A stretch of 47,305 nucleotides of DNA from Terriglobia bacterium (GTDB taxonomy: Bacteria; Acidobacteriota; Terriglobia; Terriglobales; Acidobacteriaceae), in the NCBI GenBank assembly GCA_020073015.1, contig JAIQFZ010000021.1, positions 1-47,305 of the forward strand. The letters are read 5' to 3'. Positions 18,784 to 40,327 of this stretch are shown here, one piece after another (within the stretch, counting starts at the first letter, position 1; each line of letters starts with the position of its first letter). Below the pieces are notes generated by a model that searched no databases, was not told the DNA's origin, and was given only the letters and a program-made list of their open reading frames with translations. Made by a program: the position numbers and the translations under genes.

Positions 18784-20385
18784 ATGTCTTCAGTAATCTC
18801 GACCGAACCCATGCCTTCCGAACCTGTGTCTTCCGAACCCGTGTCCACCTCCGCGCCCGAACCCTCCGTCCAAGTCTTCGCCGTTTACGGTGTTGAGCCC
18901 GAGATTCAGGCCTACGCCATGGCCAGGTATTCCCGCTCGGCGCTCTCGATGAAAGAGGCGCTGAAAGAGATTACGCAGCAGAAGGCCGAGAAGTTCCTCA
19001 ACACCTTCTACTTCCAGTACGGACACCGTTCGATTGCGGATCTTGCGCACATCGCGCTGGCCATTGAGCGGCTTTCGATTCTCGCCGCCATCTTGGTCGC
19101 CGATGAGCAGCGCTGGGACGGCCAGGAGCGCTCCACCCGCTACCAGGATTTCAAGCGCAGCGGCTACACCACGCCCCAGTTCGGCGAGGATATCGGTTCG
19201 CGAGCGCTCTACCGTCAGACCGTCGATCAACTGTTCGTCGATTACGAGCAACTCTCGGAGACGATGTTCCAGTATCTCGCCGGGATCACGCCGAAGCCCG
19301 CCGAGATGAAGCAGGATGCTTACGAGCGTACGTTGCGTGCCCGCGCTTTCGATATCTCGCGCTATCTGCTGCCGCTCGCCACCAACACGTCGCTGGGGGA
19401 AATCGTCAACGCCCGCACGCTCGAATCGCAGGTTGCGCATTTGCTGTCACAACCCCACAAGGAGGTTCGCGATCTCGGGGTGTTGCTGAAAAAGGCGGCG
19501 CTATCGCCGGCGTACAACGCGAACGAAGAATCGCTGCAGGCGCTAGTCGCAGAGATCCGCGCCGTTTCACCCGCGCTTGCCGATCGCGCTGAGCAGGAAC
19601 TGCTGCGTGAGGTGCGCGTGGCGCCCACGCTGGTCAAATACGCGGACCCGAATCCGTACGAGATTGAGACTCGCCGCGAACTTCAGCAGGCTGCCGCCGA
19701 GTTGATGCAGGGCGCGGCGATCGAGCCGGCGCCGCTGGTCGATCTGCTGGACGCTGATCCGCTCGAAATCGAACTCGCTGCAACCCTGCTCTATGGCCAG
19801 TGTCACTACTCGTGCCGGCAGATTCGCCAGGCGGTCGAAGCAGTAGGTGAAGCGCGCCGCCGGGAAATTATCGACTTGGGCCTGCGCCACCGCGGCAAGC
19901 ACGACGAGTTGCTGCGCCCGTTTTCTGCCGGACAGCAGTTTCGCTTCGACATTCTCATGGACATTGGCGGCTTCCGCGACATGCACCGCCATCGGCGCTG
20001 CGTTCAGATCATGCAGGACTTCACCACCGCGCACGGCTATGACACGCCGCCGGAGGTCGGGGCTGCTGGAATCCGGGCGACCTATGAATCCACCATGAAG
20101 CGGGCCGAAGATGTAGTCAGAAAGCTTTCCGCTGCCGGAGGCGAAGAAGCCCAGCAGAATGCGCAGTACGCCATCCCACTCGCTTTCCGCAAGCGCACGC
20201 TGTTCAAGATGGATTTTGCCGAGGCCGTTTACATTTCCGAGCTGCGCACCACACCCGCTGGCCACGCCTCCTACCGCAACGTCGCCTACGCCATGTACGA
20301 GGCGGTGGCGAAGAAGTATCCCGCCCTGGCCCGGTACTTCCGCGTAGTTGATGTGCGCGAGCCGGTGGACTTACTCAACAGATGA
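18784..20385 (+). CDS. Tandem two-domain ThyX-like (flavin-dependent thymidylate synthase family) protein
   Basis: 533 residues, about twice the length of ThyX (220-250). After a low-complexity N-terminus (1-27) come two ThyX-like domains. The first (about 30-290) has FQYGHRSIADLAHIALAIER and the E-x-S-x-R-Y element (E115-R116-S117-T118-R119-Y120), but VADEQRW where ThyX has RHR. The second (about 310-530) has the RHR element (M400-H401-R402-H403-R404-R405) but MQDFTTAHGY instead of the S-x-R-Y part. ThyX makes dTMP from dUMP with FAD, NADPH and methylene-tetrahydrofolate. Here the two half-signatures are split between domains, so activity is uncertain. TAAGAT lies 12 nt before the ATG. Confidence 0.8.
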   Translation: MSSVISTEPMPSEPVSSEPVSTSAPEPSVQVFAVYGVEPEIQAYAMARYSRSALSMKEALKEITQQKAEKFLNTFYFQYGHRSIADLAHIALAIERLSILAAILVADEQRWDGQERSTRYQDFKRSGYTTPQFGEDIGSRALYRQTVDQLFVDYEQLSETMFQYLAGITPKPAEMKQDAYERTLRARAFDISRYLLPLATNTSLGEIVNARTLESQVAHLLSQPHKEVRDLGVLLKKAALSPAYNANEESLQALVAEIRAVSPALADRAEQELLREVRVAPTLVKYADPNPYEIETRRELQQAAAELMQGAAIEPAPLVDLLDADPLEIELAATLLYGQCHYSCRQIRQAVEAVGEARRREIIDLGLRHRGKHDELLRPFSAGQQFRFDILMDIGGFRDMHRHRRCVQIMQDFTTAHGYDTPPEVGAAGIRATYESTMKRAEDVVRKLSAAGGEEAQQNAQYAIPLAFRKRTLFKMDFAEAVYISELRTTPAGHASYRNVAYAMYEAVAKKYPALARYFRVVDVREPVDLLNR

Positions 20386-26806: not shown

Positions 26807-27064
26807 ATGTTCGCACGGAAAGTCCGCGTGGAGTATCGTCAGGGCGAGTTGCTTCAACCCTGCCCCTTGAAGTGGCTCGACAGTTTCAGCATGCGCAATT
26901 TCACCAACGCTACCGTCTTCGATGACACTCTGCCGGTTGCCGATGGGATCATGGAAATCGGAACTCACGTCCCACTCGACCAACTGAGAGACGCGATGGA
27001 GGACTGGTTCCATCGCAAAAGCTACCTGCCCAAGGACGGAACGCTCGTTTTGACTCAGAACTGA
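26807..27064 (+). CDS. Hypothetical protein, 85 residues
   Basis: I do not recognise it. The sequence starts MFARKVRVEYRQGELLQPCP and ends with VPLDQLRDAMEDWFHRKSYL then GTLVLTQN; no signal peptide or membrane helix. TTAAAT lies 6 nt before the ATG with no Shine-Dalgarno sequence. Its last 10 bp overlap the end of the convergent sensor gene. Length and codon use are consistent with a real small gene, but nothing more can be said. Confidence 0.5.
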   Translation: MFARKVRVEYRQGELLQPCPLKWLDSFSMRNFTNATVFDDTLPVADGIMEIGTHVPLDQLRDAMEDWFHRKSYLPKDGTLVLTQN

Positions 27065-30000
27065 GGCCCGCCGCCGAGGCTGGTGGTTTTCTCGGATTTG
27101 AGCTGGCGCGCGAACAATCGAACGATCATGCCGTCGAATCGCGTCCCACTCAGCTTTTCGAGTTCCACGATGGCCTGCTCGTGCGTTTTTGCCGGAGCGA
27201 AGGAACGATCGCTTGTCATATTCACGTAGGCGTCCGTAACCGCCAAGATCCGCCCCCAGAGCGGAATCGTTTCACCGCGCAGGCCAAACGGATACCCCGA
27301 TCCGTCGAAGGCTTCGTGATGGGCCTCCACCGCCTGTTCGACGGCCCGGTTGCCCGGGATCGCCCGTAACACCTCGGCCCCCCATTGCGCGTGGCCTTTG
27401 ACTACCGAAGACTCATCTTCCGTCAGGGTGCCGGCTTTATTCAGAATGCGTTCCGAGACAAACAGCTTGCCCACGTCATGCACGCGCGCCGCAAATTTCA
27501 CCTCCGCCACTTCCTGCGGAGGCAGATTCAGGCCCTGCGCGATCAGCCCGGCATAGTGCGCGCACTGCTCACCGTGCCCGGAAGCATGGAGCTCCCTTAG
27601 CTCTGTCGCACGTGCCAGAGTCTCGATCGCTTCCTTCAGGGCATGCTGGTCGGTTGCATCGTCACTGCCACAGAGCTTGTGCAGGGTTTCGACCAGTTCT
27701 TCCAGATGCTCCGGGCCATTGTGTTCGCGCTGCAGAAATCCTTCGATGTAACCGAAAACCAGTTGTTGCTGCACCGTAGAACCTGCCCGATCGGGGAATG
27801 GTTCCGCCGTGGCAACATGGTTCCCGCCTGTCTTCTTGGCCACGTACATGCCGGCGTCGGCAACGCGGATCAGATCCTCGACGGCAAACCCGTGCACGGG
27901 GAAACAGGCCACCCCGAAACTGCCTGTGATGTGATGTTCCTCCAGCATCGGATCGGTGGCCAGCCACAAACGCAGTCTTTCCGCCAGGACCTGCGCCTGC
28001 TCAATGCCGGTTTCCGGCATCAGGATGATGAATTCGTCCCCGCCGTAGCGTGCGACCACGTTCGACTGCCGGCATTTTTGTTCCAACAGTCGCCCCACGC
28101 GCGCCAGCACAAGATCGCCTTCCAGGTGTCCGAGCGTGTCATTCACCTCTTTGAACTTGTCCAGATCGATCAGCACCACCGAGAAAGGCCGGCCCGAACG
28201 CGAGGCGCGTTTCCATTCCGAACTGAGCGCCTCCCAGAAGAAGCGCCGGGTCTTGATACCGGTCAAGCCGTCAGTGATCGACTGCTGCTGCAGTTTCTGG
28301 AAGACGAAGGAGTTGTGCAGGGCCGTCGCCAGCAGATCGGCCAGCGTGTTCAGAATCAAAACATCCTGCGGATGGAAGGCGTTCTCGTTTCGGCTCTCGA
28401 CGTTCAACACGCCCAGCAGCGTTTCGCCATAGCTGATCGGAAGGCAGAGCACCGCGCGCGATTCCGGCAGCACGCCCGCCAACTGTCCCTGGCCGGCGTT
28501 CTGCACCAACGCGCTCTCGCCGGTACGGGCGACCCGTCCTAAAATGCCACTGCCCACGGAGATCCGCCTTCCCAGCGCTTGCGACGTCGTGCCTGCCTCG
28601 GCCTTGATCTCGATGTCCTTGGTGGCGTAGTCCATGATGCCGATGCCGATGTGATCGTAGCGGAAGTTCTTCTGGATCTCGCGCACGATGTCGTCCATCA
28701 TCTGTTCGGCGTCTTCGCTCGAGATGGCGGTCTTCGAAATGTTGTTCAGGAACGCAAGGTGCTTGACCCGCCGCTGTTCCTCCGCAAATAACCGCGCATT
28801 CTCAACCGCGACTCCCAGCTGACCGGCGGCGGTTCGCATGACCTCCAAGTCCTGTTCGAGATACTGAAACTCTCGTTCGGTGCTCAACGCTGCCATCACT
28901 CCCGCTGGCTTCCCGCCCAGCAGAATGGGCACTGCACAGAACGATCGCGCGGGCCGCGGAGGAACGACCTCCACTCCCAGTTTGGCTCGCATCTGTTCCA
29001 GGTCGGATTGAATCAGCATCGGCTGCCCCGTCCGGATGATGTATTCGGTCAGCCCGTTCGCAGCCTTGCGCGAGCGTTTCGGAAGGATCTTCCCACCTTC
29101 CACTTCCAGCTCGAAATGGATCTCATCTTCCTCCTGGAACGCGATGTAGAAGTTACTGGTGTCGAAAATCTGTCCCAGCTCAACTTGCACGGTGCGCAAC
29201 ACCTCGTCCTGGTCCAGATGGGAGCTAATCGCCTGCCCGATCTCGGTGAGCAGCTCATATTCCTTGGTGCGCCGCTCCGCTTCGTGCATGACGACATAGT
29301 TTTCCAGCGTCAGCGCAATCTGCAGCGAAAGCCCGATCAGCAAACGAAGGTTCGACGAGCCGAACATGCGCCGTTCCGCATGCGGAAACAAAATGACGCC
29401 AAAGTTGTGTTCCCGCGTTTGCAGGCTCACCGCCATCAGGTCTTTAATTCCCTCCGCCAGCAGCGTCTCCTTGAACGCTTCAAACTTCCCACCCGGAAGT
29501 GCCGGCAGAGGCTCTCCCATGTCAGCGAGATTCCCGAAAGTCACGACCCCGCCGCGACGGTAGGCGAGCTCGGTGATGTAGTCGCCGGCCTGCGACTTGT
29601 GCAACTTCTCCAGAAATTCCTGCGAAAACCCTTTCTGCACGGAAGGAACCGTACCCCTCCACTGCTCGGAAATGAAGACGATGGCCCGCCGCGAAGGCAG
29701 CGGCGCTACCAGCCGTTCCAGAAAGCTCTGCAGACTCGGAATCAGTTCGTGACCCGACAGCAGCCGCCGGGGGTCCACGCCCAACGTTGAGAACGCCAGC
29801 GCGTTCTCCTGCACCGCATTGCGCTCGTTTTCAAACAGCACCATTACCATCGCGATGGCCAGCAGCATTTGCGGAATCGGACCGAGAAAATCTCCCAGTC
29901 GTCCAAACAACTCGAGGTAGGGCTGCCGTAATTGTCCCGCTCCCATCAACGCACCCCACAGCGCCAGAGAAAATGCCAACATCCGAAACGCCATGGAGTT

Positions 30001-30459
30001 CTTGCGGAAAGCGTAGCGATAAAAGTGAAACGAGCTGTACAACAGCACTGCCGCGAGCCCTACTTCCAGCCGGTACCACGGAAGTTTGACCTTTTCGGTG
30101 AACGCACCGTCGACCAGATGTGCGCGCAGGTTCACATACGTTAAGCCAATCCCGGTCAGCGCCAGTGCGGTGTCATACCACTTCAGCTGAAACGGCTCGC
30201 GCATCAGCCGGGTCGAGACGCAGATGCAGATCGCCATCCCTACCAACAGCAGGTTGCTCACGAAAAACAGCAAGGCCGAAGGCCGCTGGAAGTACTCCAC
30301 GGCCTCAATCGCATAATGCAGAGTGTAGGCGGCCCATGCCAGCTGCCAAGCCCGGAAATAGCTGTGGCGGTTCTGCTCGTACAGGTAGGTGAAAACCAGA
30401 AATACCAGCAGGGCGACAGCCCCGGGAATAATGACCAGACCTGTGGTTACGCTATTCAT
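27055..30459 (-). CDS. Membrane sensor with GAF, GGDEF and HD-GYP domains (c-di-GMP turnover)
   Basis: 1134 residues. About 1-215: several membrane helices, seven by eye (beginning LVIIPGAVALLVFLVFTYLY). About 235-395, 410-560 and 580-735: three GAF-like regions. About 750-910: diguanylate cyclase with an intact YGGDEF signature; the upstream inhibitory RxxD site is degenerate (RQSN). About 945-1120: HD-GYP phosphodiesterase with VHDVGK, HHEAFDGSGYP and DAYVNM. It may thus both make and break c-di-GMP, a signal that usually slows motility. There is no obvious partner next to it. It converges with the 85-residue gene and diverges from gltX. Confidence 0.93.
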   Translation of the reverse strand: MNSVTTGLVIIPGAVALLVFLVFTYLYEQNRHSYFRAWQLAWAAYTLHYAIEAVEYFQRPSALLFFVSNLLLVGMAICICVSTRLMREPFQLKWYDTALALTGIGLTYVNLRAHLVDGAFTEKVKLPWYRLEVGLAAVLLYSSFHFYRYAFRKNSMAFRMLAFSLALWGALMGAGQLRQPYLELFGRLGDFLGPIPQMLLAIAMVMVLFENERNAVQENALAFSTLGVDPRRLLSGHELIPSLQSFLERLVAPLPSRRAIVFISEQWRGTVPSVQKGFSQEFLEKLHKSQAGDYITELAYRRGGVVTFGNLADMGEPLPALPGGKFEAFKETLLAEGIKDLMAVSLQTREHNFGVILFPHAERRMFGSSNLRLLIGLSLQIALTLENYVVMHEAERRTKEYELLTEIGQAISSHLDQDEVLRTVQVELGQIFDTSNFYIAFQEEDEIHFELEVEGGKILPKRSRKAANGLTEYIIRTGQPMLIQSDLEQMRAKLGVEVVPPRPARSFCAVPILLGGKPAGVMAALSTEREFQYLEQDLEVMRTAAGQLGVAVENARLFAEEQRRVKHLAFLNNISKTAISSEDAEQMMDDIVREIQKNFRYDHIGIGIMDYATKDIEIKAEAGTTSQALGRRISVGSGILGRVARTGESALVQNAGQGQLAGVLPESRAVLCLPISYGETLLGVLNVESRNENAFHPQDVLILNTLADLLATALHNSFVFQKLQQQSITDGLTGIKTRRFFWEALSSEWKRASRSGRPFSVVLIDLDKFKEVNDTLGHLEGDLVLARVGRLLEQKCRQSNVVARYGGDEFIILMPETGIEQAQVLAERLRLWLATDPMLEEHHITGSFGVACFPVHGFAVEDLIRVADAGMYVAKKTGGNHVATAEPFPDRAGSTVQQQLVFGYIEGFLQREHNGPEHLEELVETLHKLCGSDDATDQHALKEAIETLARATELRELHASGHGEQCAHYAGLIAQGLNLPPQEVAEVKFAARVHDVGKLFVSERILNKAGTLTEDESSVVKGHAQWGAEVLRAIPGNRAVEQAVEAHHEAFDGSGYPFGLRGETIPLWGRILAVTDAYVNMTSDRSFAPAKTHEQAIVELEKLSGTRFDGMIVRLFARQLKSEKTTSLGGGPQF

Positions 30460-30753: not shown

Positions 30754-32382
30754 ATGCTTCGTGTTCGATTCGCACCGTCTCCTACGGGTTTTCTGCACGT
30801 TGGCAGCGCCCGGACCTTCATCTTCAACTGGCTCTACGCCCGTCGCAACGGTGGAACCATGGTTCTCCGCCTCGACGACACCGACGTCGAGCGCAACACG
30901 GAAGCCTCGGTCAACTCCATCTTTGAGGGCCTGCGGTGGCTCGATCTGGGCTGGGACGAAGAATACAAGCAGTCCGAGCGGCTTGCGCTCCACCGGCAGA
31001 TGGCCGATGCCATCTTTCAAAAGGGACTCGCCTACCGCGACTTCACGCCCGCTCACACCGGCGACAGCGAGAAGTCCGGTCCGGTTAAGGTCGATCCCAA
31101 GGATCTGCGTGTGGATACGGTCGCCTCGCCGCCGTCAGTCACGGTTCGAATCACGCACGTTCCGACCGGCACGGTTGTAGCCTCGAACGACGAAAGATCA
31201 GAGGCGAAGAACCGCGAAAAAGCCCTGCTCATGCTTCGCGAGCGGCTGAGCGAGGGGACGCGCGGCACCTGGCTCTTCAACCCCGGCATGCGCGAGCTCT
31301 CCCGCGCGGAAAGCGACCGCCGTGCCGCGGCTGGAGAATCCTTCGCCCTCCGCTTCCGCGTCCCCCGCGGTCTTGGAGAAGAAGTCCGTTTCACCGACGC
31401 TGTGTACGGCGAGCAAGTCAAAGCCGCCGACGACATCGAAGACTTCGCACTCCTCCGCAGCGACGGCATGCCAACGTATCACCTGGCATCGTGTGCCGAT
31501 GACGTGGATCTCAACATCAGCCACATCATCCGCGGCCAGGACCACCTCTCGAACACCTACAAGCACGTTTTGATCTTTGAAGCGGCGGGCGGCAAGGCGC
31601 CCCAGTTCGCGCATCTCCCCCTGCTCGTTGCGCCCGACGGATCGAAGCTCTCCAAGCGCCGCCACGGCCCGGTCGTCAGCGTGACTACCTACCGCGACGC
31701 CGGCTTCCTCCCCGGAGCCTTCATTAATTTTCTATGCCTGCTAGGCTGGTCGCCCAAAGACGATCGCACACACATGTCCCGCCAGGAGTTGATTGACGCC
31801 TTCTCCCTGGAAGGCATTAACCGCGCCAATGCGGTGGTGAACTTCAAGGAACCAGCCGCAACACCCGAAGAAACCTTCGATCCCAAAGCTATCTGGCTGA
31901 ATGCAGAGCGCATCCGCGCCCTTTCCATCGACGACCTCAGCGCGCGCTTGCTCCCCATCGTCCATGCCGCCGGACTCCAGACCACTCCCGAGAAGATGCG
32001 TGCCATCACCCCGCTCATCCGCGAGCGCATCAAGCTGCTGCGCGATGTCCTGACCGCCGCCGACTTCTTCTTCGTCGACCAACTGCCGCCCTACGACCCC
32101 GCTGAGCTCATCCCGCAGAAAGGGGACGCCGCCATGGCGCACAAAGTTTTGACCCGAGCCCGCGAGGTCCTGGCCCAAACCGAATTCAAGCACGACCCCC
32201 TCGACCAAGCCCTCCGCGCCGCCGCGCAGGAGTTCGGCCTAAAAGCCGGACAAATGTTCCAACCCATCCGAGTAGCCGTCTGCGGAAGGAAGAACGCCCC
32301 ACCGCTGTTCGAGACACTGGAAGTGGTAGGTAAAGAGAAGACGCTCGAGCGAATCGAGCAAGCGATTCAAAAATCCCAATAG
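30754..32382 (+). CDS. gltX: Glutamyl-tRNA synthetase with an inserted release-factor-like segment
   Basis: 542 residues, longer than usual (about 470-500). It charges tRNA-Glu. Class I signatures: [15 protein letters not shown] (HIGH), [26 protein letters not shown] and KLSKRRHG (KMSKS). Residues 110-170, at the acceptor-binding insertion where a zinc motif or a short loop normally sits, read as class I release factor domain 3: [40 protein letters not shown]. The GGQ loop between the first two blocks is missing. The frame is intact on both sides and synthetase sequence resumes at [14 protein letters not shown]. The C-terminal anticodon-binding domain is normal. It is the first of three tRNA-Glu/Gln-related genes in 12 kb. 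Confidence 0.95.
31081..31263 (+). other. Release-factor-like insert in gltX
   Basis: GltX residues 110-170. Aligned by eye to E. coli RF1 from memory: PKDLRVDT against PADLRIDT, then [20 protein letters not shown] against [20 protein letters not shown], then [14 protein letters not shown] against KNKAKALSVLGARI. Between the first two blocks RF1 has about 17 residues including GGQ; here there are 8 (VASPPSVT). The match is in frame and covers most of the compact alpha/beta core of the domain. Confidence 0.75.
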
Positions 32383-32588: not shown

Positions 32589-32850
32589 TCCGCTACTGAA
32601 GTAGGCCGTTTGCATGCGGCCTTGAAATTAGGCGTAAAGAGTCCGCGCCAAAGTGCGGGCTGCCTTCCCCACCCTCAGTTACATATCGACTCGGGCCCGA
32701 GATTTTGCACCCACAAGAGTACTGGGCTGCAAATCTCAATCAGGCGTGTGCGGCCTGTATTCAAGTTTGTATGGCAGCACATGCAATTGGTCTTGGGGCG
32801 TCCCCGTGACCGAAGCGAATATGTCTACAGCGACACCAGAGGAGAATCAA

Positions 32851-34581
32851 ATGAAACAAAATTCCAGATTCATCTCAAGGAGCTTGCTCTCAGCGACCAT
32901 GCTCTTTATCTTCGCGACCGCAGCACTCGCCGCGAATACGCGACCCCGGCCAAGTGTCCAGCAAGGCATAGGCTATGGCGGTGCGGCGACGGAAGTGGTC
33001 TTGAGCGATCTCCCGGATGTCACGGCGGCAGACTTGGCCGCTACCAAGCCGGAAGCGTCTCCCCGCAACCCGCATTTTACAGATGCCCAGTATGGGGCCG
33101 CGAAGCTGGCTGCCTTACACCACGGCATCAGCTCCCGACCGCAGGACGCTGCCCGTCAACTAATCCCCAGAAATCCGGCGATAAAGGCCGCGTCGACCGA
33201 TACTCCTGGGGCTTTCGTTGATTTTTTTGGCGCAAGCCAGGGCTGCAATGGCCTAGGCTGGACTCCGTCCGATATGGGCCTGGCAGTGAGCTCGCTCTAT
33301 GTCGTACAGGTCGTCAACGAGTGCGTTACGGTGTGGAGCAAGGCAGGCGCACTACTCTCCGGCCCCAAGGATCTCTGCGGCATTTTTGGCCTGCCTGCGA
33401 ATGCCGGAAGTCACGGCTGCTTCGATCCACGTGCACTGTATGACGCTCAGGCGAACAAATTTGTCATTAGCGCTAGCTACCAGGATGGCACGGGAACCGC
33501 CTATATCCTGATTGCGGCGGCGGGCAAACCGTCGGGCGCCTGGCACTCCCATAAGATTGTAAGAGGCGCCGGGCTGGCCGATTATCCGACGCTTGGGCAG
33601 ACTGCCTACATCAACAATCCCAACAACTCGCTCATCACCGTCTGCGACAACTTCTTCGGCATTACCTTCTATGCCGAGTGCTTGCTCATGCCCAAGGCCG
33701 GTGTGTACGGCAAATTAGGAGGCTTCCCGGTCTTCTTTGGCTTCTCGCTCGGCGGCTTGCCTCTGGATACGCTCCAGCCGGCCAACGTCTATGAGCTTTC
33801 CGACAATCCACGCGCCCAGTTCGCGGTCGATAGCGTCAACTACAACGGCGGCGACGGCTTTTGTGACGCAAACCATACCTTCGATCAGGGCCTGGTGGTC
33901 TGGGCCTTTTCCGGCGCAACTGCCGGTCAAGCCAGAGCCGCTGGCTGGTATACCGGCTGTAACACCAGCGCGTACTCGTTCCCGGGTTCGGCCGACAACG
34001 CCGGGTTCTGTTCCGCCTGCATCGAGACTCTCGACAATCGAATCAGTGGAATGGTGTACTACTCCCAGGGCGAGCTCTTTCCCACGATTGACACCAACAA
34101 TGGGGCCGCCAGCGCAGTCCTGGGCTGGAAGGTACATCCGTACCTTGACGATAACGGCTTCGGCTGCACGGGGGGCGTGAATTGCCCCTTAATCACCGCT
34201 GTTACCATCGAGCAGGAGTATTGCTATGACTGCGGCGGTGGGAATAGCTTTGAAGCGTACTTCGGGGACGTAGCGCCCAACCCGGAGAACGACTGGGTGA
34301 TGTTCGCCACATTTTCAGGTACGGGCGTCTCCCCGGGACAATTCTATACGTCGAACCGCGTGAGCTGGGCAACTCCTTTCCATGATGGCGGCATTTACAG
34401 CTGCGTGAACGATGCCGCGTACACTCAGGGCCGCTGGGGAGACTACGGCGCGGCGGCACCGGACGACCCGGGAACGAACCTCAAGAATGCCGCGGCTGTC
34501 TGGGGCAGTGGCATGTACGTCCAGCCCAGCGGCGCCTGGGGTACGTGTGTCGCGGGAGTCCGTCCCCAGGACGGACCGTAG
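32851..34581 (+). CDS. Secreted cysteine-rich protein of unknown function
   Basis: 576 residues from the ATG at 32851 with AGAGGAG 7 nt before it; an in-frame ATG at 32821 is less well placed. Signal peptide MKQNSRFISRSLLSATMLFI ending in AALAAN. The mature part begins polar, then has a repeated-strand pattern with motifs such as GWTPSDMGLAVSSLYVVQVV, CFDPRALYDAQANKFVISAS and LADYPTLGQTAYINN, seen in secreted proteins of several soil bacteria, possibly a beta-propeller. By my count it has 16 cysteines, an even number, spread over the mature chain, which suggests disulfides. No catalytic motif is apparent. Confidence 0.75.
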   Translation: MKQNSRFISRSLLSATMLFIFATAALAANTRPRPSVQQGIGYGGAATEVVLSDLPDVTAADLAATKPEASPRNPHFTDAQYGAAKLAALHHGISSRPQDAARQLIPRNPAIKAASTDTPGAFVDFFGASQGCNGLGWTPSDMGLAVSSLYVVQVVNECVTVWSKAGALLSGPKDLCGIFGLPANAGSHGCFDPRALYDAQANKFVISASYQDGTGTAYILIAAAGKPSGAWHSHKIVRGAGLADYPTLGQTAYINNPNNSLITVCDNFFGITFYAECLLMPKAGVYGKLGGFPVFFGFSLGGLPLDTLQPANVYELSDNPRAQFAVDSVNYNGGDGFCDANHTFDQGLVVWAFSGATAGQARAAGWYTGCNTSAYSFPGSADNAGFCSACIETLDNRISGMVYYSQGELFPTIDTNNGAASAVLGWKVHPYLDDNGFGCTGGVNCPLITAVTIEQEYCYDCGGGNSFEAYFGDVAPNPENDWVMFATFSGTGVSPGQFYTSNRVSWATPFHDGGIYSCVNDAAYTQGRWGDYGAAAPDDPGTNLKNAAAVWGSGMYVQPSGAWGTCVAGVRPQDGP

Positions 34582-37042: not shown

Positions 37043-38482
37043 CTAGTGTTGATCCCGAAACTGCTTGGCCCTCTGTCTTGCGTCCTCGGCCTCGCGCTGC
37101 ATGCCTTTCGCCTGGTAGGAGTCCGCCAGGGCCTCTTCGTTGTCGGGATCGTCTCCGTTGTCGCGCTGCTTCAGGAAGGATGCGATGGCATCGTCATAGA
37201 GCTTCAGCTTGCTCTGCATCAGGCCCATGTCGTAAAACACGCTCTGATATTCGGGATCGAGCTGAGCCGTTCGCTTGTATTCCTCGAGCGCCTCCGAATA
37301 CTTATTCTCAAAGGAGAAAACCGCAGCCAGTCCGGAGTGTGCGTCCGCGCTGTTCGGATTGAGTTTCAGAAGCTGTGTGAAAGCCTCGCGAGCCTGCTGC
37401 GGGCGCTTCAGCTCCAGTTCGGTGAATCCCAAAACATAGAAAGCGCCTTCATTACGCGGGTTCAGCTCGATGACCCGCTTCAGCTCCATTTCCGCTTTCG
37501 CAAAATCGCGCTTGATTACATAAGCGCGCGCCAGTTCGAAGTGGGCAGGTGCATAGTCAGGATGTTGGCGAACCACGGTCTCCAGCCGGGGGATCGCGTC
37601 ATCCGTGTTGCCCACGGCTAAGGACTGGCGCGCGTGATCCATGGAAAAAATGTAGGCACGGGAACGGTGCAGCCAAGTGATGCCGCCAGCAACCAGCAAC
37701 AGCCCGACAAGAAGCACAGCGACTCTGCGAAACGGCTCATCACGGGTGGGAGCTAAGCGAGCGATGAGCGCGCCCAGAATCAATCCGGAGACAAGCCCTC
37801 CGACGTGGGCGGCGTTGTCGGTGCGGCCCCACATCGCTCCGAAAACGAGGTTGTAGCCCGCGAACATCACTACGCTACGTAGCGTTCCCGCCACGGCGGC
37901 CCGGGGGAGAGAAAATTCCCCGAGATAGAACGATGCGATGAGCGCCCCGGCGATGCCGAAGATTGCTCCCGAAGCTCCAGCACTGAGGCCTGTGGGATGC
38001 CAAGCCGCGCTGGTTACGCTCGCGGCGACACCGGTGATCAGGTACACGGACCCAAATGTCCAATGACCGTAGAGCGATTCGGCCAGCCTGCCCAGGTCCC
38101 ACAGGCACCACATGTTGAATCCGATGTGGATGATGCCAATGTGGACAAAGACGCAGGTGAGCAGTCGCCACCACTGGCCACTGACGGTAAGAGGCGCAAA
38201 ATTGGCTTGCCATTGAACCAGTTCCTGCCAAGTGGGCTCCATGATCGAGACGCCGGCGAGCGCCATCGCGAGGAAGACCGCGACGTTGATCCCAAAAAAG
38301 GCCTGGGTGACGACCATGGATGTGGATTGCCGCCTCAGCCACGGCGCGGCCTCGACCCGCTGCACGGCGTTCTCCGGCTCTTCGCCGCGCTGCGCAGCTT
38401 CGTGCTGCACGCACCACTGGCAGATCTTCCTGCCGAACATGAGCGCGGGCAGCTTGCGGCCGCATTGAACACAATTTGCCAT
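37043..38482 (-). CDS. Rhomboid intramembrane protease with zinc ribbon and TPR domain
   Basis: 479 residues. Residues 1-26: a small zinc-ribbon-like motif with two CxxC pairs (CVQC, CQWC). About 55-245: rhomboid core with the active-site serine S171 in GASGAIFG, the partner histidine H226 in NAAHVGGL and N123 in the HIGFNMW segment, so it should be active. About 275-479: TPR repeats (YAPAHFELARAYVIKRDFAK, AFYVLGFTELELKRPQQARE, ADAHSGLAAVFSFENKYSEA). It cleaves membrane-protein substrates; the TPR part probably recruits them or a partner. Single gene, divergent from glnS. Confidence 0.92.
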   Translation of the reverse strand: MANCVQCGRKLPALMFGRKICQWCVQHEAAQRGEEPENAVQRVEAAPWLRRQSTSMVVTQAFFGINVAVFLAMALAGVSIMEPTWQELVQWQANFAPLTVSGQWWRLLTCVFVHIGIIHIGFNMWCLWDLGRLAESLYGHWTFGSVYLITGVAASVTSAAWHPTGLSAGASGAIFGIAGALIASFYLGEFSLPRAAVAGTLRSVVMFAGYNLVFGAMWGRTDNAAHVGGLVSGLILGALIARLAPTRDEPFRRVAVLLVGLLLVAGGITWLHRSRAYIFSMDHARQSLAVGNTDDAIPRLETVVRQHPDYAPAHFELARAYVIKRDFAKAEMELKRVIELNPRNEGAFYVLGFTELELKRPQQAREAFTQLLKLNPNSADAHSGLAAVFSFENKYSEALEEYKRTAQLDPEYQSVFYDMGLMQSKLKLYDDAIASFLKQRDNGDDPDNEEALADSYQAKGMQREAEDARQRAKQFRDQH

Positions 38483-38596: not shown

Positions 38597-40327
38597 ATGA
38601 GTCCTACGAGTCCATCCACCGACGCCGGGAAAAAGCCGTCGCCTGAGCCGACGCCCGCGCCCTCGAACTTTATTCGCGACACCATGATTCGCGACTTGGA
38701 AACGAAGAAGTACGGCGATGCCGTCCTCCAGACGCGTTTTCCTCCCGAGCCCAACGGCTACCTGCACATTGGCCACGCGAAGGCCATCTGCCTCGACTTC
38801 GGCCTGGCCGATGAGTTCGCCGGCAAGACCAACCTGCGCTTTGACGATACCAACCCGGAAAAAGAAGAGCAGGAGTACGTCGACTCCATCATGAAAGACG
38901 TGCGCTGGCTCGGCTTCGAGTGGGACGGGCTCTACTACGCGTCCGACTACTTCGACCAGTTGTATGAGTGGGCCATCAAGCTGATCAAGGATGGTAAGGC
39001 GTACGTCGATGACCTGACCGCCGACGAGATCCGTCAGCACCGTGGGACGCTGACCGAGCCCGGCAAGGACAGCCCGTATCGCAACCGGCCCGTTGCAGAG
39101 AATCTCGATCTGTTCGAACGCATGCGCCAAGGCGAGTTCCCGGACGGCACGCGCGTGCTGCGCGCCAAGATCGATATGACGTCGCCGAATCTGAACATGC
39201 GCGACCCGGTGATGTATCGCATCCTGCATGCCGAGCATCACCGGACCGGCGACAAATGGTGCATTTATCCGATGTATGACTACGCGCACGGGCAGTCGGA
39301 TTCGATCGAGCGCGTCACGCACTCCATGTGCACGCTGGAATTCGAAGATCACCGGCCGCTCTACAACTGGTTCATCCAGCAGCTGGGAATTTTTCCGTCG
39401 CAACAGATGGAGTTCGACCGCCTCAGCCTCACCTACACGCTCCTCAGCAAGCGCCGGCTGCTGAAGCTGGTGCAGGAGAAGCACGTGAACGGGTGGGACG
39501 ATCCGCGCATGCCGACGCTGTCGGGAATCCGGCGGCGCGGGTACCCGGCCGAGGCGATCCGGAATTTCTGTGCGGCCATCGGCGTGTCGAAGACGAATGG
39601 CACGCTCGAGTTGGCCATGCTGGAGCACTACATTCGCGAAGACCTGAACAAGCGAGCCCCGCGCGTCATGGCCGTCCTGCGACCATTGAAGGTAGTGATT
39701 GATAACTATCCGGAGAATCAGGTCGACGAAGTCGATGCGGTGAACAATCCCGAGGACGACAGCGCGGGCAAGCGCAAAGTGCCGTTCTCGAAGGTGCTCT
39801 ACATCGAGCAGGACGATTTCCGCGAAGTTCCGCCCAAGCAGTACTACCGGCTGTCGCCCGGGCGCGAAGTTCGCCTGCGCTACGGATACTTCATCACGGC
39901 CAAGAGTGTGGTGAAGAACGACAAGGGAGAAGTGGTCGAGGTGCACTGTACCTACGATCCGGCGACGCGGGGCGGGAACGCTCCCGATGGACGCAAGGTG
40001 AAATCAACCATCCACTGGGTTTCGGCCGCGCATGCGATCGATGCGGAAGTCCGCCTGTACGACAAACTCTTCAGCAAGGAAGATCCCAACCAGGTGGAGG
40101 AAGGGCAGGAGTTCACCGCCAACCTGAATCCGCAGTCCCTGGATGTAATTTCGCACGCCAAGCTGGAGCCTTCGCTGGCCAACGCGCCGGTTGAGAGCCG
40201 CTACCAGTTCGAGCGGTTGGGATATTTCTGCGTGGACCCGGATTCAAAGCCCGGACGTCCCGTGCTCAACCGCACCGTGGCGCTGAAGGACACCTGGGCC
40301 AAGATCGAGAAGCGAGCAGGATCGTAG
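38597..40327 (+). CDS. glnS: Glutaminyl-tRNA synthetase
   Basis: 576 residues (E. coli 554). After a proline/serine-rich N-terminus (1-25) comes the class I core: [20 protein letters not shown] (HIGH), [17 protein letters not shown] (the GlnRS-type tRNA/ATP contact), [20 protein letters not shown] and [11 protein letters not shown] (KMSKS). The two anticodon-binding beta-barrels follow from about 345. It attaches glutamine to tRNA-Gln directly, so the organism need not depend on the GatCAB amidation route for Gln-tRNA. Most bacteria with glnS are Proteobacteria, Deinococcus or Bacteroidetes; finding it here is compatible with old transfer. Confidence 0.97.

Follow-up and report, generated by a model that had tools for sequence, protein, structure and literature searches.

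The putative zinc-binding region (pZBD) of bacterial glutamyl-tRNA synthetase (GluRS) is reported to position the acceptor arm of the tRNA (PMC4381286). According to the available part of that study, the zinc motif CxC...Yx3C is absent in 119 of 212 bacterial GluRSs and the entire pZBD is deleted in seven of the 212, and the lengths of this region lie mostly between 46 and 54 residues, with minor groups of 31-36 and 10-17 residues. In the transamidosome of T. maritima, the pZBD contacts GatCAB, and the authors suggest that this contact is its core role (PMC4381286). GluRS can also be of chimeric origin, as described for GluRS2, which combines a catalytic part and an anticodon-binding part (PMC3927822). 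Release factor domains, in turn, can be kept after losing their chemistry: the mitochondrial ribosomal protein MRPS35 possesses a hydrolase-type domain without the catalytic glutamine (PMC6514570). In the material available to us, MRPS35 is the nearest case that we found of a bacterial-type release factor domain that lacks this glutamine and is kept for structure.

Here we describe a GluRS that contains a domain derived from release factor 1 (RF1), a natural hybrid of two translation proteins present in a few related bacteria. The affected part of the enzyme is the same as in the GluRSs with a variable or deleted pZBD, with the difference that the RF1-derived domain adds 59 residues here, whereas the accessible part of PMC4381286 describes no foreign domain. 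The likeness to GluRS2 lies in the chimeric origin; GluRS2, however, joins two parts of GluRS, and the term 'release factor' is absent from the main text of PMC3927822. MRPS35 differs in being a ribosomal protein of proposed ICT1 ancestry, as far as the available text of PMC6514570 goes, and not a piece of RF1 within a synthetase. Domain 3 of RF1 (prfA, PF00472) resembles the insert in sequence, with identity to the best available RF1 at 37 of 58 positions, and in predicted core fold, but the insert lacks the GGQ loop, the codon-recognition domain and domain 1. No synthetase-release factor chimera is described among the literature matches listed, which cover open-access PMC and were available in part.

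The window that we analyzed is one entire contig of 47,305 nucleotides (JAIQFZ010000021.1) from the genome of a Terriglobia bacterium (G000; 5.5 Mb, 99.18% complete). The gene gltX (30754..32382, + strand) encodes a protein of 542 aa that scores 388.2 bits against TIGR00464 (cut-off 289.95), which identifies it as a bacterial GluRS, and a Pfam search recovered the catalytic domain PF00749 and the anticodon-binding domain PF19269. An alignment of 12 GluRSs located the motif HVGS at residues 15-18 (30796..30807, +), which we take to be the HIGH-type signature, and the motif KLSKR at residues 298-302 (31645..31659, +), presumably the KMSKS-type signature, whose positions K298, L299, S300, K301 and R302 are invariant in 12/12 aligned rows. 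This chimeric protein is the only full-length GluRS found in the genome. The remaining matches of GluRS or release factor type are a 303-aa frame, GlnRS, prfA and prfB; the 303-aa frame matches the catalytic domain only and is probably of the GluQRS type, judging by its extent. The neighboring gene on the reverse strand (27055..30459, -) encodes a GAF-GGDEF-HD protein by Pfam, and blastn synteny of this neighbor with the related loci L098, L006 and L018 indicates that gltX is at its native locus; reverse-strand frames of similar appearance were also noted by eye in L168 and L169. The window further contains glnS (38597..40327, +; PF00749, PF03950 and PF20974; TIGR00440, 749 bits), so that a direct route to Gln-tRNA exists. 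We also observed a 610-aa protein after gltX (32749-34578) with a signal-peptide-like start by eye and no Pfam match, a single protein with a Rhomboid protease domain followed by TPR repeats (37046-38482) and a frame of 533 aa (18784-20385) in which Thy1 (PF02511) matches twice, possibly a duplicated ThyX-type protein.

Alignments with insert-free GluRSs of the same genus and family delimit the inserted segment to about residues 109-167 (31078..31254, +; edges within a few codons), a net addition of 59 codons or 177 nt that is in frame and leaves the GluRS flanks intact. The exact edges cannot be fixed because the end residues align ambiguously on both sides. The blastn match of the insert-free L006 and L018 stops at window position 31079 and resumes at 31267, and the net length allows for ten bases that these two loci possess between the breakpoints. 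Homology to domain 3 of RF1 extends over residues 111-168 (31084..31257, +) based on PF00472 and TIGR00019. PF00472 itself matches residues 130-167 (E 7.2e-10; 39.3 bits relative to a cut-off of 35), and the excised insert alone reaches 46 bits (E 5.9e-12). A previous sequence-only reading of this DNA had described a gltX with intact flanks and an in-frame release factor-like domain at 31081-31263, made of two similar blocks, for which a PF00472 match was expected. The significant match confirms this description; the coordinates were right within about ten bases, and the two blocks are located at residues 115-158.

The same reading proposed that a piece of prfA, prfB or a small release factor-like gene had been inserted, which is borne out, and the donor can now be narrowed to RF1. 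The prfA model TIGR00019 matches residues 108-168 (E 4e-11), covering only positions 215-283 of its 361, and the matches to prfB (E 3.2e-9) and prfH (E 7.6e-5) are weaker. Against models purpose-built from 53 RF1-type and ten RF2 segments of the loci at hand, the insert scored 68.9 bits for RF1 and 52.7 bits for RF2. The insert of another carrier, G554, is nearer still to RF1, with 41/62 identical residues and 84.5 bits for RF1, the highest among the inserts, against 66.1 bits for RF2. RF2 and prfH were therefore rejected as donors, since the RF1 models score best. The genome encodes its own prfA and prfB elsewhere, and the GluRS segment is its sole further PF00472 match. In an iqtree analysis of 47 domain sequences, the inserts of the two carriers in the window's genus (g1) were placed among RF1s from elsewhere in the phylum, beside L070 (support 43). 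We also considered a mobile repeat. This was rejected: searching the insert DNA in 24 genomes of the genus yielded two strong matches, both in carriers, and the other 16 listed matches reached at most 61.7 bits, 12 of them at known RF1 places.

AlphaFold predicted a folded core (31105..31266, +) of three strands (residues 118-125, 128-135 and 140-144) and a helix from residue 150 to 167-171. It is bordered by two low-confidence linkers, residues 104-109 and 168-179 (the latter at 31255..31290, +), both with pLDDT < 50 in the full model. The full chimera was modeled with a mean pLDDT of 89.0 from an input of 20 rows, 12 of GluRS and eight of release factor domains; block means were 80-87 for residues 111-160 and 62 for residues 161-170. 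Because the release factor rows might bias this model, the insert was also folded alone, from two insert sequences only and without those rows. The resulting model (pLDDT 80.8, pTM 0.67) presents the same three strands and helix, with three of five models confident and two poor (pLDDT 42.2 and 41.0). Searching the PDB with the insert-only model, Foldseek placed release factors at ranks 1-34 and C12orf65 at rank 35 among the best 50 rows shown, with TMq of 0.56-0.73 and E-values from 4.5e-4 to 0.039, four of them at or below 0.001; such modest values are not surprising for a domain of this size. Some of the 35 carry the name of a ribosome complex as their title, and the identity of the chain as a release factor was confirmed by PDB list or title. 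The rows that follow within the best 50 are integrase cores (E ≥ 0.07), and the full model recovered GluRS structures first. These predictions suggest a beta-beta-beta-alpha core of release factor domain 3 that would fold by itself on flexible linkers, in agreement with the structure that the sequence-only reading had anticipated.

By alignment with the GluRSs of E. coli and Thermus, the insert falls after the strand AYRDF and before the MRELS stretch, in what corresponds to the pZBD. The earlier suggestion that this place touches the tRNA acceptor end is thus consistent with the reported positioning of the acceptor arm by the pZBD (PMC4381286, in its available part). The zinc motif CxC...Yx3C is absent from all 12 aligned GluRSs, the window's and those of 11 relatives, which present AYRDFT and no cysteine in the region. 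The insert-free L011 and L012 of the same genus possess a short insertion of the TTAGQ type that precedes the insert site by a few residues, which indicates that this loop varies in length. We found both gatB and glnS in G000 and in the second carrier of the genus (G001); they exceed the cut-offs in 20 and 22, respectively, of the 24 genomes of the genus, so that this background does not single out the carriers.

The insert was detected in five of 398 genomes drawn evenly from the family, some of them incomplete, and these five belong to three genera: G000 and G001 (genus g1), G611 and G734 (genus g7) and G554 (genus g292). Within g1, it was seen in two of 24 genomes, a set in which some genomes are incomplete and G011 has no full GluRS match, and another member of g7, G029, possesses a GluRS without the insert (L022). 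The loci of G611, G734 and G554 are GluRS frames with the segment at the same place. The relatives' GltX sequences thus show an insert that is common to four other species and patchily distributed. Among 29 aligned GluRSs, two contain the segment and 27 run from EKS-G or a similar sequence directly to WLF; these 29 come from 33 loci after omission of two release factor loci, the window repeat and L014, which lacks the anchor motif. A scan of contigs, with patterns limited in reach to close relatives, yielded one carrier (L098) and six release factors.

In a second draw, 397 genomes of the family were taken around G611, and a profile built from all five inserts listed G001, G611, G554 and G734 at 109.8-161.3 bits; the next matches reached at most 86.8 bits, with frames and extents typical of ordinary release factors. 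The two draws overlap, and G000 is absent from the listing of the second. G475 stood out by its three matches, of which two score alike and all have frames of release factor size. Across 396 genomes drawn from the phylum, we found no carrier besides the window's genome (best other match E 1.2e-14), using a query that might not detect inserts much more divergent than the one in G554. Scanning viral contigs with the whole enzyme and with the insert revealed no relative. A wider GluRS scan did find relatives on 16 viral contigs (L139-L154), one of them as a short match only and ten on contigs of 121-508 kb; no release factor insert was present in the ten of these 16 loci that were aligned.

The phylogenetic distribution of the insert suggests two scenarios. 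In trees of the GluRS flanks, carriers group with their own genera and not together: G611 and G734 group with G029 (support 97 in the protein tree and 67 in the DNA tree), and the two trees disagree on the position of G554. A tree of 22 GluRSs joins the two g1 carriers with a support of 1.000. Under one scenario, a single ancient insertion was followed by many losses; under the other, the segment passed from one gltX allele to another. Several independent insertions are improbable, given that g1 and g7 have the site, the frame and the eroded loop in common. In favor of transfer, the synonymous divergence (dS) between the g1 carriers and G611 is 0.65 and 0.79 in the insert compared to 1.43 and 1.23 in the flanks, and in the stretch that follows the insert on its right, G611 resembles the g1 carriers (0.768 and 0.798) more closely than it does any of 17 insert-free g1 genes (≤ 0.758). 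In contrast, the difference is small between g1 and G734 (1.04 vs 1.08 and 0.83 vs 1.17, insert vs flanks), dS between G611 and G734 is higher in the insert (0.77) than in the flanks (0.56), and the other stretches compared show no such pattern consistently. Overall, these comparisons may lean toward lateral transfer, weakly and not consistently.

The GGQ loop, which carries the catalytic motif in release factors, was claimed in the sequence-only reading to be replaced by a shorter stretch, and this holds. Its place is VASPPSV, residues 123-129 (31120..31140, +), as defined by alignment with the genome's own RF1 and the inserts of G001, G611 and G554. The 12-residue GGQ-bearing stretch of the own RF1 is reduced to PPSV in the window. 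The corresponding stretches are SPPSVAVRVTH in G001, SPGSVAVRITH in G611 and ASGDGEASTAVRITH in G554, and the contig of G734 starts after the position of the loop. At its core, the series runs from the GGQ loop of the own RF1 to GDGEAST in G554, PGSV in G611 and PPSV in G000 and G001: the loop is shrunk to SGDGE in G554 and deleted in the other three. The SQ of RF1 is also kept in G554, with SE in the other inserts. The most distant carrier thus keeps a longer relic of the loop together with SQ, and the erosion of the loop is visible across species. The series suggests, by sequence comparison, that the loop was first shortened and then lost. Both glutamines of CQ and SQ are present in 45/45 release factor domains and are lost in the g1 inserts. 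Among 32 columns nearly invariant in these 45 domains, 18 are kept by both g1 inserts, two are kept by one of them, five are changed and seven are deleted, which indicates that the core stayed and the tip went. On one viral contig (L158:801-998, IMGVR_UViG_2627853544_000002), we observed an RF1-like domain with GGGGGF at the tip in place of GGQ, which is possibly disarmed too.

We estimated dN/dS of the insert between carriers and obtained 0.25, 0.24, 0.15, 0.12, 0.11 and 0.10 for the six pairs without G554; dS was saturated or not computable in pairs with G554. A neutral simulation of five pairs, rough in that changes were treated as single hits, showed fewer amino acid changes than under neutrality, with P of 0.026, 0.0, 0.001, 0.0 and 0.0 out of 1000 simulations (0.011 or, with slightly different limits, 0.026 for G000-G001). 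The departure from neutrality is stronger in the pairs with other carriers, where the observed changes were six for a neutral mean of 13.5 in G611-G734, 11 for 21.9 in G001-G611, 15 for 22.7 in G000-G611 and 18 for 35.4 in G611-G554. The insert is therefore under purifying selection between carriers. Relative to the flanks, its constraint is looser. For G000-G001, dN and dS were 0.074 and 0.322 in the insert and 0.031 and 0.624 in the flanks, a dN/dS of 0.23 compared to 0.05, and the changed codons (non-synonymous to synonymous, 9:10 for the insert and 26:139 for the flanks) differ significantly (Fisher p 0.0028). Flank dN/dS was 0.08-0.11 in the other five pairs, with insert values between genera of 0.11-0.24, which indicates that the insert is clearly looser than its flanks within g1 and only slightly so between genera.

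We propose that the pZBD loop of GluRS received, in frame, the part of an RF1 gene that encodes domain 3. The GGQ loop would then have been shortened and lost, leaving a beta-beta-beta-alpha core that may fold alone on flexible linkers and act next to the tRNA acceptor arm as a contact module without catalytic function, with the tRNA, the ribosome or GatCAB as its partner. RF1 homology, fold, sharing between species, the erosion series, selection, the invariant columns and the pZBD site all support this reading. We assign a probability of about 0.5 to the retention of the disarmed RF1 domain as such a module in the only GluRS found in this genome. Alternatively, the same captured domain may have no job, with selection only keeping it folded and out of the way. 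This is a close rival that we take seriously, at somewhat short of an even chance. Indeed, some constraint would also be expected of a domain that folds by itself within a variable loop, which casts doubt on any role, and selection could act solely on folding and on not disturbing GluRS. The loop is variable, as seen in the pZBD lengths and the seven deletions among 212 bacterial GluRSs (PMC4381286, available part) and in the TTAGQ-type insertions of L011 and L012. In the pair G000-G001, constraint on the insert is weaker than on the surrounding GluRS. The distribution is patchy, and 393/398 family genomes, some of them incomplete, show no insert, which implies that it is dispensable there. 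The glutamines universal in 45 release factor domains are lost in the g1 inserts, the charge is balanced (ten K+R and nine D+E in the insert of G000, compared to 11 and seven in the own RF1), unlike that of a strong RNA binder, two of five insert-only models are poor, and pLDDT averages only 62 over residues 161-170 of the full model. A contact between GluRS and GatCAB may also be redundant in G000 and G001, given that glnS and gatB are both present there, as they are in most of the genus. Against an idle domain, however, stand its retention in three genera, a dN/dS of 0.10-0.15 in four pairs and 32 columns, polar and charged residues among them, that are invariant across four inserts, with 28 of the 32 identical to the RF1 consensus.

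Activity of the hybrid as a release factor, a rescue factor or a peptidyl-tRNA hydrolase is very improbable. The insert has the predicted fold of a release factor domain, but the four carriers whose sequence covers the tip have lost GGQ together with the VN after it, and searches of GltX with Pfam and TIGR models matched neither the stop codon-recognition domain nor domain 1 of class I release factors. The insert, as read from its sequence, would be incapable of hydrolyzing peptidyl-tRNA. An artefact of assembly or binning has a still smaller, practically negligible probability: although the G001 contig comes from a metagenome bin, the insert occurs in the genomes of five species and its copies differ by 20 to 63 substitutions across the five pairs compared, and that contig (L098, 46,691 bases) matches the window by blastn without a break from the GGDEF gene through gltX at 88% identity. 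Both edges are at the same place in three non-window carriers; only the right edge is seen in G734, whose contig begins inside the insert. The presence of the insert in four other species rules out an assembly join. Chance resemblance or convergence of the loop to domain 3 is equally negligible in view of the PF00472 E-value of 7e-10, the Foldseek matches to release factors and the even closer similarity of the G554 insert to RF1.

The contact-module reading can be extended further, although we regard the extension as rather unlikely: the disarmed RF1 domain would be a new kind of GluRS accessory module, spread from genus to genus as a gene segment by recombination of gltX alleles and docking in a release factor-like manner, either to guide the tRNA acceptor arm or the ribosome or to keep GluRS out of the GatCAB transamidosome. 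These results reveal a hybrid of two core translation proteins whose intermediates are preserved: a partly eroded loop stands between RF1 and the present form, so that the loss of the tip can be traced. The chimera offers a direct test of the purpose of the pZBD, tRNA binding or GatCAB contact, a question raised in the available part of PMC4381286. It also constitutes a case of a release factor fold reused without catalysis in bacteria, in which a foreign domain is tolerated, and apparently maintained, by an essential synthetase at the place where GluRS meets the acceptor arm of its tRNA.
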